Part shown: positions 12,975 through 39,766 of the stretch, piece after piece
Numbering within the stretch: position 1 is the first letter of the stretch
Layout: every line of letters begins with the position of its first letter
Assembly: GCA_027083345.1 (NCBI GenBank)
Contig: JALWOZ010000025.1
Span: forward strand, 1-50,085
DNA: 50,085 nt
Source of the DNA: Candidatus Kaiserbacteria bacterium
GTDB taxonomy: Bacteria; Patescibacteriota; Minisyncoccia; Phycocordibacterales; UBA2100
Reading direction: 5' to 3'
Translations under genes and position numbers: made by a program
Notes under the pieces: model-generated
The model's input: only the letters and a program-made list of their open reading frames with translations
Databases searched by the model: none
What the model was told of the DNA's origin: nothing

Positions 12975-13400
12975 ATGAAGGGATTTATAAATGAGTTTAA
13001 GACGTTTTTGATAAAAGGTAATGTCATGGATATGGCTGTTGGCTTCATGTTTGGTGCGGCTTTTGCTACTGTAGTGAAGTCTCTAGTTAATAATATAATA
13101 ATGCCACCTATTGGGTTATTGTTGGGTAAGGTAGACTTCTCAGCATTGTATATATCTTTAGATGGTACACATTATGCTACACTCAAGGCGGCGGAGGCAG
13201 CTAGTGCGCCACTTATTAAATACGGAGTATTTATAAACGATGTGATAGGCTTTGTTATATTAGGCTTTGTCATCTTTATGATGATAAAGGGAGTAAATAA
13301 ACTCCAAGCAAAAAACGAAGAGGAGAAGAAAGAAGAGGCACCAAAAAAGAGTGATGAGGTTTTGTTGTTAGAGCAGATACGAGACGCTTTGGCTAAATAA
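12975..13400 (+). CDS. mscL: Large-conductance mechanosensitive channel
   Basis: FKTFLIKGNVMDMAVGFMFGAAFATVVKSLVNNIIMPPIGLLLGKVDF. Confidence 0.97.
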   Translation: MKGFINEFKTFLIKGNVMDMAVGFMFGAAFATVVKSLVNNIIMPPIGLLLGKVDFSALYISLDGTHYATLKAAEAASAPLIKYGVFINDVIGFVILGFVIFMMIKGVNKLQAKNEEEKKEEAPKKSDEVLLLEQIRDALAK

Positions 13401-14782
13401 TGCGAGCATCCTATATATACTCCGCTGTTTTTGGTTTTCTCTTGGGGATTTTGTGGCAAAGTGTACTTAATTTAAACACCACTTTTGTGGTGTTTTTGGT
13501 TATTTTAGGTTTTTTTCTTTTGGTTATATTACGTTTTAATAACAAAGGTATAGAAAGCATAATATTTATTGTGTTGGTAATATTTTCTATGGTTATTGGA
13601 GTTGTGCGTATGCAAGTAGCACAAGAGGTAAACAATAGCAACAAGAGCGCTCTTAATTATTTAGTAGGAGAGATTGTAGATTTTAAGGCTGTTATAGTTG
13701 ACGAGCCGGACAAAAGAGAGCGTAATATATTATTAACTGTTAAATCTGAGAGAGGGTTTAAGGTATTGGTTAAGGCAAGCGTTTATGGTAAATATAATTA
13801 TGGAGATACAATTAGGGTTGTAGGCAAGTTGGGGAGACCTCAAAATTTTATAAATAAAGACAATGGTAAGGAGTTTGATTATGTTGGTTACTTAGCTAAA
13901 GATGGAGTGCATTATATAATTAAAAGCTACAAGATTACCACCATCTCTGAGAGTAAGGGGTTCGACATTAAAGCTAGGTTATTTTCTATTAAACGCCGGT
14001 ATTTGGATAGTCTCAATAGCCTCATACCGGAGCCTCAATCTGCATTAGCTGGGGGAATCACAGTTGGATCAAGGCGTGCATTAGGTCAGGATTTAACAGA
14101 GGCGTTTAGGAATACAGGCTTAATACATATAGTGGTTTTATCCGGCTTTAACATTACGGTTATAATTATATTTTTATTAAGAGTGTTATCTTGGTTGCCC
14201 AGAGTTATCTCATACTCTTTTGTTGGTTTAATGGTTATATTATTCGCAATACTGACTGGTGCAGATGCTCCGGTCGTGAGGGCTAGTGCCATGGGGATAT
14301 TAGGAGTATTAGCTCTAACATTGAGAAGGACATATGCCATAACCCGGGCACTCATTATAGTTGCGTCTATTATGGTATTTTGGAATCCTTATATATTAGT
14401 TAAGGATATTGCCTTTCAGCTTTCTGTAGTGGCTACACTAGGTTTAATTTATATATCTCCACATATAACCTCTTGTTTGTCTAAGAAGTTGCCGTTTTGG
14501 CTAAGTGAGATAATAGGTACTACTATATCCGCACAAATAGCGGTGTCTCCTTTACTTTTGTTTTATATGAACAAATTAAGCGTAGTCGCGGTATTGGTAA
14601 ATGTTTTAGTATTACCAATCATACCCTTAGCTATGCTGGTCACTTTCTTAGCAGGGTTTATAGGGATGTTTTATACACCTATTGCATTACCGTTTGCTTT
14701 TGGTGCACATGTTATGCTCTCATATGTAATATGGGTAGTAGAGGTCTTTAATAAATTGCCATTTAGTACCTTATCTATATAG
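13400..14782 (+). CDS. comEC: ComEC/Rec2 N-terminal and channel (competence) domain protein
   Basis: GGITVGSRRALGQDLTEAFRNTGLIHIVVLSGFNITVI; APVVRASAMGILGVLALTLRR; lacks C-terminal metallo-beta-lactamase domain. Confidence 0.9.
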   Translation: MRASYIYSAVFGFLLGILWQSVLNLNTTFVVFLVILGFFLLVILRFNNKGIESIIFIVLVIFSMVIGVVRMQVAQEVNNSNKSALNYLVGEIVDFKAVIVDEPDKRERNILLTVKSERGFKVLVKASVYGKYNYGDTIRVVGKLGRPQNFINKDNGKEFDYVGYLAKDGVHYIIKSYKITTISESKGFDIKARLFSIKRRYLDSLNSLIPEPQSALAGGITVGSRRALGQDLTEAFRNTGLIHIVVLSGFNITVIIIFLLRVLSWLPRVISYSFVGLMVILFAILTGADAPVVRASAMGILGVLALTLRRTYAITRALIIVASIMVFWNPYILVKDIAFQLSVVATLGLIYISPHITSCLSKKLPFWLSEIIGTTISAQIAVSPLLLFYMNKLSVVAVLVNVLVLPIIPLAMLVTFLAGFIGMFYTPIALPFAFGAHVMLSYVIWVVEVFNKLPFSTLSI

Positions 14783-15428: not shown

Positions 15429-16316
15429 ATGCTCCTCAAATTTAATAGGAAGTTAATATACACATCAACAGTAGTAGTGCTGTTAATGGTAACAGCTTTT
15501 ATTTGGAATGTTGTATATGAGTTACAAGATAATATTTATTTGAAAGTGGCATTTCTAGATATTGGACAGGGTGATGCGATATTTATAGAGTCTCCGATTG
15601 GTGTGCAAGTACTTATAGATGGTGGGCGTGGAGATGAAATATTGAGAGAGCTGGCTAGAGTGATGCCTTTTTATGACAGGTCCATAAATTTGGTAATAGC
15701 TACGCACCCCGATTCAGATCATATCGGAGGATTGCCAACAGTTTTAAAAAGGTTTAGAGTTGATAAAATAATAAGACCAGGTGTGGCGCATAGTACTCCA
15801 GCTACAGAGTCCCTATTATTATCTATATCTAAGGAGAATAACAGTGGGACAAAAGAGATCTTAGCTCGTAGAGGGCAGGTATATGATTTAGGAGGGGGCG
15901 AGGCAGGCAGGGTGGAATTGCATATTTTATTCCCAGATAGGGACGTGAGTGATTTTGAGACAAATACAGCTTCTGTTGTAGCAAGGCTGACCTATGGAGA
16001 CACAAGTGTGATACTCACAGGCGACTCGCCGATAGCTATAGAGGAGTACCTCGTGAGTCTTGATGGTGCGGATTTACAAAGTGATATATTAAAGCTGGGT
16101 CACCATGGTAGCAAGACCAGTAGTAGTGATGCCTTCTTAGGGTTTGTGAATCCTCAGTGGGCAATAATCTCAGCTGGGAAAGATAATAAGTACGGGCATC
16201 CGCATAAGAGTGTGATGGATAAGGTTGCAAGATTCGGTATAACTCCGCTGAGTACAATAGATAAGGGCACAATAAAGTTTAGGAGTGACGGCAAGCAGTG
16301 GCAGTTGGTAAAATAA
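15429..16316 (+). CDS. ComEC C-terminal-like MBL-fold hydrolase
   Basis: VAFLDIGQGDAIFIESP; LVIATHPDSDHIGGLP; ILTGDSP; LKLGHHGSKTSSS; one N-terminal TM segment. Confidence 0.93.
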   Translation: MLLKFNRKLIYTSTVVVLLMVTAFIWNVVYELQDNIYLKVAFLDIGQGDAIFIESPIGVQVLIDGGRGDEILRELARVMPFYDRSINLVIATHPDSDHIGGLPTVLKRFRVDKIIRPGVAHSTPATESLLLSISKENNSGTKEILARRGQVYDLGGGEAGRVELHILFPDRDVSDFETNTASVVARLTYGDTSVILTGDSPIAIEEYLVSLDGADLQSDILKLGHHGSKTSSSDAFLGFVNPQWAIISAGKDNKYGHPHKSVMDKVARFGITPLSTIDKGTIKFRSDGKQWQLVK

Positions 16317-16373: not shown

Positions 16374-16616
16374 TTATATCAACCCTGCCTCCTTTAGCAC
16401 CTTGTATGCACCATTTTTGTTTATGTTTTTGATTGCTCTTGTCGAGAGAGTCAGGCGCTTGGTGATGCCAAGCTCTGGGATGAAGATACGCTTCTTCTGC
16501 AAGTTAACCTTGCGTCCACGCTTTCCAGTAGGGTTGAACTCAGTAGCACGCGTACGGTTGCTGTAGCCACCGCCTATTTGTGTCTTTTTCTTTGTTACTG
16601 GGCATGTCCTGCTCAT
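16374..16616 (-). CDS. rpmB: Ribosomal protein bL28
   Basis: MSRTCPVTKKKTQIGGGYSNRTRATEFNPTGKRGRKVNLQKKRIFIPELG. Confidence 0.93.
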   Translation of the reverse strand: MSRTCPVTKKKTQIGGGYSNRTRATEFNPTGKRGRKVNLQKKRIFIPELGITKRLTLSTRAIKNINKNGAYKVLKEAGLI

Positions 16617-16681
16617 AATGGCGCTGAGTTTAACATAATGTTATACTCTATGCAATACAGTTAAAATATTAAAAGTTGAGG

Positions 16682-16740
16682 AAATAAATTATAAACCCGG
16701 GGCAGTGGGCGGCTAGGGATAGAGGGTCTATAATTTATTT
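16682..16740. other. 12-bp perfect inverted repeat enclosing a G-quadruplex-like motif
   Basis: AAATAAATTATA (16682-16693) ... TATAATTTATTT (16729-16740), loop GGGGCAGTGGGCGGCTAGGGATAGAGGG (four G-tracts). Confidence 0.75.
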
Positions 16741-16786
16741 GGGAGACTTTTATGGAGATATAAGAATTAGATAATATTTAAGAACA

Positions 16787-17413
16787 ATGAGTATAGACAC
16801 AATATTCCAAATTATAATTTTAATCTTTGCGGTAATAGTGCATGAGGTTTCTCACGGTGTCATGGCATATTATTTAGGAGATATGACAGCTAAGAGGGCG
16901 GGGAGACTCACACTCAACCCATTGCCACACATAGACATGCTAGGTTCAATAATATTGCCGGCACTTATGGTGCTCTCACATTCGCCGATACTCTTTGGTT
17001 GGGCTAAGCCTGTGCCGTATAACCCGTACAATCTGCGTAGGGGAGGTAGGTGGGCCGAGTCTCTCGTGGCCTTTGCTGGGCCACTTAGCAACTTTGTGCT
17101 GGCTATAATATTTGGCTTTGCAATAAGGTTTGGTATTGTGCCAACCGAGGCACTGAGCATAGCCTTTATAGCAGTATATATAAATGTACTATTAGGCATA
17201 TTTAACCTAATACCTATACCACCACTTGACGGCTCTAAGGTATTACCTAGCTTATTGCCACGCACACTGGCAGCTCAATATGCTCAGTTAACAGCATCAT
17301 TGCAGAGGAGTCCGTTTATAGGCTTTGGCTTTGTGTTAGTGCTAGTAATGCTATTTGGTTCAGTACTCAGCACAGCTGTATATGCTGTATCAAAGCTGAT
17401 AATAGGCATGTAG
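16787..17413 (+). CDS. M50 family site-2-type zinc metalloprotease
   Basis: VIVHEVSHGVMAYYLGD (HExxH) and NLIPIPPLDGSKVL. Confidence 0.95.
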   Translation: MSIDTIFQIIILIFAVIVHEVSHGVMAYYLGDMTAKRAGRLTLNPLPHIDMLGSIILPALMVLSHSPILFGWAKPVPYNPYNLRRGGRWAESLVAFAGPLSNFVLAIIFGFAIRFGIVPTEALSIAFIAVYINVLLGIFNLIPIPPLDGSKVLPSLLPRTLAAQYAQLTASLQRSPFIGFGFVLVLVMLFGSVLSTAVYAVSKLIIGM

Positions 17414-28476: not shown

Positions 28477-29307
28477 ATGGTGACTGAATACAATACAAAA
28501 CGGAGGGCTAAGTACGGGCAGAATTATATTAAGGACCCAAGTTTGGTGCGCAGGTTGTTAGACAAGACGACTGTGGTGGAAAGTGATGTTGTATTAGAGA
28601 TTGGGTCTGGTGAAGGGGCCTTCACCGGTGAGATACTTAGGCGCGCAGATAAGTTGGTAACCATAGAGATAGATAAGGAGAATGTAGAGCACTTGCAAGA
28701 CGCCTATACAGACGAGGTGCAAGCTAAGAAGCTAGAGATAATACACAAAGATGCATTAGAGTTTGAGTCGCGTTGGGCAAAGACGGAAATTAAGAATCAG
28801 GAGTATAAGATAGTCGCAAGTATACCGTATAGTATAAGCTCAGAGCTGTTTAAAAAGTTTTTACTTAAAAAACCGATGCCGAGCGAGGCGTGGTTTACTG
28901 TGCAGAAGGAGTTTGCCTTGCGCGCAATGGGTAAGAGCGAAAATGGACTGTTGTCTGTGTTATTAAATAGTTTTTATGATATGGAGATTGTGCATGAGTT
29001 TGCTCGTGAGGACTTCTCTCCCGTGCCTGGTGTTGACTCAGTATTCTTACAACTTACAGCGCGAGGTGATGTGTCAGAGCCTGTAGAGATGCACTTTGGT
29101 GAGTATAAAGACTTTGTGCGTGACGGCTTTACTCAGCCCATAAAGACTGTGCAAAAGCACTTTAAAAATATTATAAATCCAAACAAGTTGCAACAACTAG
29201 CAGATAAGCATAAATTTAAACTTAAAGAGCGCACAACAGAGCTCACGGCTTGCCAATGGCAAACGTTATTTATTGAATATATCGTATGGCAAAAGAGCAA
29301 GGCTTAG
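28477..29307 (+). CDS. rsmA: 16S rRNA dimethyladenosine transferase (KsgA/RsmA)
   Basis: KYGQNYIKDPSLVRRLLD; VLEIGSGEGAFTGEIL; VASIPYSISSELFKKFL. Confidence 0.92.
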   Translation: MVTEYNTKRRAKYGQNYIKDPSLVRRLLDKTTVVESDVVLEIGSGEGAFTGEILRRADKLVTIEIDKENVEHLQDAYTDEVQAKKLEIIHKDALEFESRWAKTEIKNQEYKIVASIPYSISSELFKKFLLKKPMPSEAWFTVQKEFALRAMGKSENGLLSVLLNSFYDMEIVHEFAREDFSPVPGVDSVFLQLTARGDVSEPVEMHFGEYKDFVRDGFTQPIKTVQKHFKNIINPNKLQQLADKHKFKLKERTTELTACQWQTLFIEYIVWQKSKA

Positions 29308-29319
29308 CCTTGCTCTTTT
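29291..29319 (+). terminator. Terminator overlapping rsmA 3' end
   Basis: AAAAGAGCAAGGC-TTA-GCCTTGCTCTTTT; rsmA stop lies within the hairpin. Confidence 0.85.
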
Positions 29320-29335
29320 GCTGGTGCTTGTACTC

Positions 29336-29624
29336 ATAAGCCGGATTCTGTTTTAATGGTCATTTACCTAGGGTAATTGTTACCAATTACCTCTTGCGAT
29401 TCTCCCCTCGACTAAGCTCGGGGCACGATCTTGCACACAGGTAAGGATTTTGCCGTTTCAGCCTAACTTAATAGGATCGTTTCTGTTCGCACCTCTATCC
29501 CTCGATTACTCTCGGGACGACGGGTATTACCCGCTACCATTTTAACCCTTTGACAAGCTCAGGGTATGTGTCCGGACTTTCCTCACCCTTCGACAAACTC
29601 AGGGCGCGACCAATCTGTACAAGC
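29336..29624 (-). ncRNA. rnpB: RNase P RNA (type A-like)
   Basis: Minus strand has GAGGAAAGTCCGGAC near the 5' end and ACAGAATCCGGCTTATG at the 3' end; internal GGTAGCGGGTAATACCCG, GAGGTGCGAACAGAAA. Confidence 0.93.
29404..29604. repeat. Four copies of a palindromic repeat (approx. CCCtGAGcttgTCGAaGGG) inside rnpB
   Basis: 29404-29423 CCCCTCGACTAAGCTCGGGG; 29499-29516 CCCTCGATTACTCTCGGG; 29546-29564 CCCTTTGACAAGCTCAGGG; 29586-29604 CCCTTCGACAAACTCAGGG. Confidence 0.8.
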
Positions 29625-29689
29625 TATAATATAGTGCCTGTATCACATTGAATTGTCAATTCTATTAAGGTAAGATATTAATAATATTT

Positions 29690-29774
29690 GCCCAGGTGGT
29701 GAAATTGGTAGACACGTGCGCATGAGGTGCGTATGCCGAAAGGCGTGGAGGTTCAAGTCCTCTCCTGGGCACCA
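29690..29774 (+). tRNA. tRNA-Leu (anticodon GAG), CCA encoded
   Basis: GCCCAGG...CCTGGGC acceptor, long variable arm ATGCCGAAAGGCGT, anticodon loop ATGAGGT, terminal ACCA. Confidence 0.95.
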
Positions 29775-39229: not shown

Positions 39230-39766
39230 ATGATTTTATCAGATACAGCGGTATTAAAAGAGATTAAGAAGGGTACTCTTGTGATAGAGCCTTTTAACAT
39301 AGAGAGGCTTGGCAGTAACTCATATGATGTTGCACTTAGTAAGCACCTGGCGGTGTATGAGCAAGAGGAGCTTGATGCCAAGGCGCACAATACCTTAAGG
39401 CACTTTGAGATACCTACTGAGGGCTTTGTGTTGCAACCGGGCGAGCTCTACTTAGGCTCTACAGAGGAGTATACAGAGACGCATAATCACTTGTCTATAC
39501 TAGACGGCAAGAGTAGTGTGGGCAGGCTAGGGATAGACATACACGCTACTGCCGGTATTGGAGATGTGGGCTTTAAGGGGTATTGGACGCTCGAGCTCTC
39601 TGTGACAAAGCCTGTTAGAGTCTACGCTGGTATGCCCATAGGGCAAATAATCTACTATACTGTTGAGGGAGAGGTGGAGAATAGGTATGACACTAAAGGT
39701 GATGCCAAATACTCACAGCAAGAGCATTTGCCCGTGGAGTCAATGATGTGGAAGAATAAGTTTTAA
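39230..39766 (+). CDS. dcd: dCTP deaminase
   Basis: NSYDVALSKHL; LDGKSSVGRLGIDIHATAGIGDVGFKGYWTLEL. Confidence 0.95.
   Translation: MILSDTAVLKEIKKGTLVIEPFNIERLGSNSYDVALSKHLAVYEQEELDAKAHNTLRHFEIPTEGFVLQPGELYLGSTEEYTETHNHLSILDGKSSVGRLGIDIHATAGIGDVGFKGYWTLELSVTKPVRVYAGMPIGQIIYYTVEGEVENRYDTKGDAKYSQQEHLPVESMMWKNKF

Follow-up and report, generated by a model that had tools for sequence, protein, structure and literature searches.

Palindromic insertions within coding sequences are best known from Rickettsia and from hairworm mitochondria. The Rickettsia palindromic elements (RPEs; Ogata 2000, 2002) are characterized in PMC10969869 as short palindromic repeats belonging to several families, dispersed through a reduced genome, with many copies lying in frame in unrelated protein genes. 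In the same account, each family encodes a recurring peptide. RPEs are ~150 bp long, and their repeats are reported to lose identity as they age (PMC6649704, citing Claverie and Ogata 2003). As outlined in PMC6649704, the mitochondrial genes of Nematomorpha carry coding palindromes that are actively kept paired, for which template switching has been proposed. Y1 transposases are believed to act on the dispersed hairpins of REP/RAYT systems (REPINs) in the form of folded single strands (PMC3116915, PMC6006769), and REPs can sit inside the transposase gene itself (PMC6006769). For Patescibacteria, no report of coding palindromic insertions was found in the open-access literature searched.

Here we analyzed a hairpin in a 50,085-nt stretch of DNA from a Candidatus Kaiserbacteria genome (the window). 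Our main reading, to which we give a probability of about 0.62, is that this hairpin is a copy of a non-autonomous palindromic insertion element of ~80-100 nt. This element would have dispersed in two species of a single Patescibacteria genus, reaching about nine sites per species, and it would be mobile via a folded strand whose loop is recognized in trans.

The hairpin lies between rpmB on the minus strand and a divergent M50 peptidase gene on the plus strand (ATG 16787), with 46 nt separating position 16740 from the ATG. This agrees with the preliminary description of the locus, which was made from the letters alone. Its perfect 12-bp inverted repeat was also confirmed, formed by AAATAAATTATA (16682-16693) and TATAATTTATTT (16729-16740), as was the inner ACCC/GGGT extension, which follows after one A.C mismatch (16694/16728). 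The enclosed G-run center fits the G3+N1-7 x4 pattern as described, and the hairpin indeed has no T tail and was not called as a terminator. The stem is longer than first noted, with 29-nt arms that are 79% complementary, and no inverted repeat found in the window is longer than this hairpin (Table 1). Its RNA fold z of -2.45 is beyond chance, and the decisive point in this respect is the recurrence of the element elsewhere in the genome. There was no gathering-score match to any Rfam family, and assignment to a known RNA family was rejected. Elsewhere in the window, the N-terminal (competence) and C-terminal (metallo-beta-lactamase-like) parts of a ComEC-like protein appear by eye to be two separate genes (13400-14782 and 15429-16316), with an opposite-strand gene between them.

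Table 1. Coordinates of the window hairpin, its parts and neighbors, and of the second hairpin family.
Feature	Position	Strand	Basis
Whole hairpin element, family 1 copy	16670..16752	+ (G-rich strand)	covariance-model match 16672-16750, 79.9 bits
5' arm of stem	16670..16698	+	inverted-repeat search
GAGG, 5' side of purine-rich internal loop, ~17 bp from apical loop	16678..16681	+	
Nearly invariant 25-nt loop GGGGCAGTGGGCGGCTAGGGATAGA	16699..16723	+	18-copy alignment
3' arm of stem	16724..16752	+	inverted-repeat search
GGGA, 3' side of purine-rich internal loop, opposite GAGG	16741..16744	+	
rpmB (ribosomal protein L28), left neighbor	16374..16616	-	
M50 peptidase gene, right neighbor	16787..17413	+	Pfam Peptidase_M50
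Family 2 copies, DNA repair genes uvrB/uvrA/recJ	L172 682-757, L172 3085-3162 (G000); L211 4889-4980 (G002)		

The preliminary description had proposed a search of the full genome and its relatives, and the same element recurs in both. Further copies in the window's own genome (G000; 658 kb, 31 contigs) were found using a 131-bp query around the window element, at E values down to 1e-17. A core-pattern search placed this family, family 1, at about nine sites in G000 (8-9, two of them degenerate) and at nine in G002, a congeneric species (GenBank WFTK01, Patescibacteria group bacterium isolate S139_169). With up to 3 mismatches allowed (<=3), the pattern was absent from G001 and G003, two further species of the genus, and from 66 other genomes of the same taxonomic family; all genomes compared are fragmented drafts, some of them scanned in stretches only. 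Among 85k GTDB species genomes, a set that G000 may fall outside, the degenerate exact core pattern was found in the G002 record only. When 397 genomes of the order were searched with a covariance model, one significant match beyond G000 was obtained, in G276 (E 1.6e-6); G165 scored at chance level (E 0.0085), yet its loop contains GCTAGGGATAGA. Matches of family 1 in phages and plasmids were at chance level only, and a candidate further copy at window positions 39518-39537 was rejected as a short chance match within a gene. Long hairpins in general numbered 15 in 515 kb of genome stretches versus 1 in a local shuffle.

Six of the sites are common to both species: the convergent rnr/smc spacer, the smpB-tmRNA spacer, the murB coding sequence, the rpsL-rpsG spacer, and the pnp and rplJ leaders. 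G000 also has the window copy in the rpmB/M50 intergenic region (the M50 leader), a copy in the tsaD coding sequence and a degenerate one in that of dus. The copies listed for G002 additionally include the 23S-5S rRNA spacer, the rpsA leader, where the element is directly 3' of a TATAAT box, and the rsmA-RNase P RNA spacer. Orientation relative to the genes is mixed, with both directions found, and at rplJ the inner hairpin is inverted between G000 and G002. The rsmA and RNase P RNA genes are convergent in G000 (window 29277-29700) and lie on the same strand in G002 with the family 1 hairpin between them (L057), which suggests a rearrangement at or near the element in this region. Separately, base pairing is possible in this genus between the spacer directly upstream of tmRNA and the mature 5' end (L049, L050, L107, L110), through AAGTCATTC/GGGGATGACTT and GCAATTCGC/GGGGGTGAATTG and seemingly with compensatory changes. 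This could be a processing or antisense fold.

All family 1 copies fold into one long hairpin, ~80-100 nt in length. In a gap-free alignment of 18 copies the 25-nt loop is nearly invariant, and it is letter-for-letter identical in several copies of both G000 and G002. The inner stem, AAACCC/GGGTTT, is mostly fixed; the outer arms are private to each site and retain their pairing, giving stems of 20-30 bp. Covariance of the stem, another check put forward in the preliminary description, revealed compensatory change in the relatives: 94% of cells in the 13 inner pairs are paired and 10 of the 13 pairs have changes on both sides, values reached by 0/500 shuffles, and a shift by a single column lowers the pairing to 57%. 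Several copies contain a purine-rich internal loop ~17-21 bp below the apical loop, and GAG/GAG or GAA/GAA internal loops resembling the GAGG/GGGA of the window occur in other copies and families. The rplJ and pnp copies, which look young, have the arm sequence GAGKAAACAATTTTCAAACC in common. No hairpin foot is shared among family 1 copies, with the arms varying up to the end of the pairing. An 11-nt loop match to RNase P RNA, AGGGATAGAGG, was noticed by eye and is probably chance.

The stems also differ between their two strands. On the G-rich strand, G.T pairs outnumber A.C by 31:7 (p about 1e-4; 26:6 in a more conservative count) and purine-purine mismatches outnumber pyrimidine-pyrimidine ones by 26 to 7, though this preference is drawn from few sites that are incompletely independent. 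From reading the folds, the wobble bias is seen both where the G-rich strand is sense and where it is antisense. This favors selection on the folded G-rich strand itself, as either ssDNA or RNA, over selection on the neighboring mRNA. Local GC skew showed no relation of consistent sign, and a link to replication direction was rejected.

Comparison of the two species indicates how long the copies have been in place. The 4-fold sites of five genes differ by 39-57% between G000 and G002. Across the six shared copies, the loops differ at 7/150 positions (5%), the inner arms at 23/156 and the outer arms at 57/168. For the three copies that are clearly vertical (rnr, ssrA and murB), the loops differ at 5/75 positions (p about 1e-10 against 39%). 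Set against the 4-fold divergence, this conservation implies that the copies are old at several sites and that the loop is either constrained or homogenized by copying. At rpsL-rpsG, 13 of the 14 changed pairs are altered on both sides, which looks more like arm-to-arm copying or independent insertion than stepwise drift.

Several occupied sites have an empty counterpart in a related species. The murB insert is ~26 codons, the length of the whole hairpin with both arms, and is absent in G001 and G003. The rpsL-rpsG site is likewise empty in both of these species, the tsaD and rpmB/M50 sites are empty in G003, and the rpsA site is empty in G000 and occupied in G002. The tsaD and rpmB/M50 regions of G002 are at contig ends and fall outside this comparison. 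There is no palindrome at the empty murB and rpsA sites, and insertion into pre-existing palindromes was rejected for this reason.

Within coding sequences, family 1 is read in a consistent way. The sense strand of the MurB, TsaD and Dus copies is the C-rich one, and all three are read in a single frame, resulting in PLSLAAHCPGF-like peptides. The dus gene of G002 (L115) has, where G000 carries the degenerate copy, a different in-frame insertion, a very stable GC-rich multi-hairpin stretch (-119.6 kcal/mol) lacking the family 1 core. A hairpin scan of stretches from G000 and G002 identified a second family with three copies, all in frame, in uvrB, uvrA and recJ (Table 1). Family 2 encodes VCEFCSAHQPGVTPPQNCTH-like peptides in UvrB, UvrA and RecJ and has the core CCGCCCAC..CCCGG in common with family 1; in-frame insertion with a recurring peptide is thus found in both families. 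The solved UvrB structure 3uwx lacks the insert, which is a clean extra 30 residues.

Hairpins of similar build occur in other members of the order. A Mur ligase gene (Pfam) of G003 contains an in-frame hairpin with the loop GTGGGCG ... inner hairpin ... TAGGGATA. G276, from another taxonomic family, has two loop families of its own, with three and two copies in 173 kb. These have constant loops on variable stems; the loops are unrelated to that of family 1 and the build is the same, and a GAA/GAA-type internal loop lies ~20 bp below the apical loop (L139, L142, L146). Some G276 copies are in frame in PfkB, ribulose-phosphate epimerase and glycosyltransferase genes (Pfam). The G001 stretches scanned contained zero GC-rich-loop hairpins.

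Among the suggestions in the preliminary description was a small mobile or palindromic element, and the dispersed copies, empty sites and in-frame copies within genes all support it. We infer the mobilizer, the intermediate and the maintenance of the arms from this pattern. The element would spread as a folded single strand, the G-rich strand in the form of ssDNA or RNA, and a putative trans-acting enzyme would recognize its loop and inner stem. After insertion, the arms may be kept complementary by template switching between them, by selection on the folded strand, or by both, with the stem sequence drifting while pairing persists. Inserts in proteins would be tolerated as extra residues. The IS200-like Y1_Tnp profile had zero matches in G000, G001 and G003 and two in G002, where each is associated with different palindromes of its own, and no transposase was found tied to family 1. 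The ends of the element are not conserved between copies, and a target-site duplication could not be read as the species compared are too diverged. Loop conservation and arm divergence also count against the mobile element. A dead selfish insertion should not keep its loops so conserved, and the arms are far more divergent among copies than the loops, which plain replicative copying does not give. The conservation of loops at vertical copies is the strongest point against a purely selfish element, and it leaves room for domestication.

The same loop conservation, together with the covariation and wobble bias, favors a structured element useful to the host. Here a protein would bind the folded G-rich strand (RNA or ssDNA) at a number of places in the chromosome, and such binding could, for instance, serve to regulate or process transcripts from genes of translation and RNA decay (rRNA, tmRNA, RNase P RNA, S12-S7, L10, S1, PNPase), and by eye the sites do appear enriched for RNA and translation operons. 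However, such genes are in any case abundant in reduced genomes, and the copies occur in both gene orientations, inside coding sequences and between the convergent rnr and smc genes. The inversion at rplJ, the absence from two species of the same genus and the lack of a consistent relation with local GC skew also do not fit, and we consider this explanation possible but on balance doubtful. It is improbable that the arms are made from the target, such that the mobile unit is the loop alone and either enters existing palindromes or triggers an inverted duplication of the flank. In its favor, the outer arms are private to each site, and the double-sided changes at rpsL-rpsG are more like replacement than drift. 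Yet a palindrome is absent from the empty murB and rpsA sites, the murB insert covers the full hairpin, and the rplJ and pnp copies share arm sequence.

The hairpin/G-quadruplex switch proposed in the preliminary description, taken to operate in the M50 protease gene's 5' leader, is very improbable. The window copy is in that leader and fits the G3+N1-7 x4 pattern, but the pattern is kept in 10/18 copies and missing in 8/18, while the non-G letters between the G runs are as fixed as the Gs. The M50 site is also empty in G003, and this, along with copies in both orientations, within genes and between convergent genes, makes the proposed structured RNA leader for M50 unlikely as well. We give next to no weight to an ordinary transcription terminator or a chance palindrome: the hairpin is stable and intergenic, but it has no T tail, is upstream of both neighboring genes and is repeated elsewhere in the genome.

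Beyond the mobile element itself, we tentatively raise the possibility that Patescibacteria of this order harbor an undescribed class of mobile hairpins. In such hairpins the apical domain would be fixed, with motifs like GTGGGCG ... TAGGGATA and in some cases a small hairpin within it; the stem would be long and self-correcting, with a purine internal loop ~20 bp below the apical domain. Working as folded single strands of defined polarity, they might enter genes in frame and then be retained at each site by selection, in effect domesticated. The constant-loop/variable-stem design is unusual, and it separates what is kept (loop, pairing and strand polarity) from what is free. Family 1 thereby offers a handle on how palindromes move without an evident transposase, and on template switching versus selection in arm complementarity. 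Families 1 and 2 together show a route by which essential proteins of minimal genomes gain inserts of 25-30 residues.

Like REP/RAYT systems, family 1 consists of dispersed hairpins. However, REPs have a tetranucleotide foot (GTAG-type), a short stem and usually a high copy number, whereas family 1 has a 25-nt fixed loop, a long stem and about 9 copies, and G000 gave no Y1_Tnp match. The two Y1_Tnp (IS200-like) genes of G002 (L256 1250-1787 and L257 1468-2030) each have a palindrome of their own, 11-15 bp with a 3-nt loop, in three copies, two of which are inside the transposase coding sequence, and more copies are found elsewhere in G002. These match the known REP-inside-tnpA arrangement (PMC6006769) and do not imply action on family 1. 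Family 1 is also small, non-autonomous, palindromic and dispersed, as MITEs are, but no parent transposase was found for it and its center is conserved rather than its ends. With the hairworm mitochondrial palindromes it shares inverted repeats inside genes and maintained pairing; the hairworm arms, however, code for conserved regions of the proteins, and the account of them in PMC6649704 mentions no family with a constant loop. In its mode, family 1 resembles RPEs, a likeness drawn from their description rather than their sequence. Both are dispersed palindromic repeats (9 + 9 copies for family 1) and, for families 1 and 2, both include in-frame insertions with recurring peptides. RPEs are likewise not known to have a mobilizer. 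Unlike RPEs, family 1 is only 80-100 nt long, and its arms diverge yet stay paired around a nearly frozen loop. Since pairing is retained while the arm sequence diverges, we do not file family 1 as an RPE.
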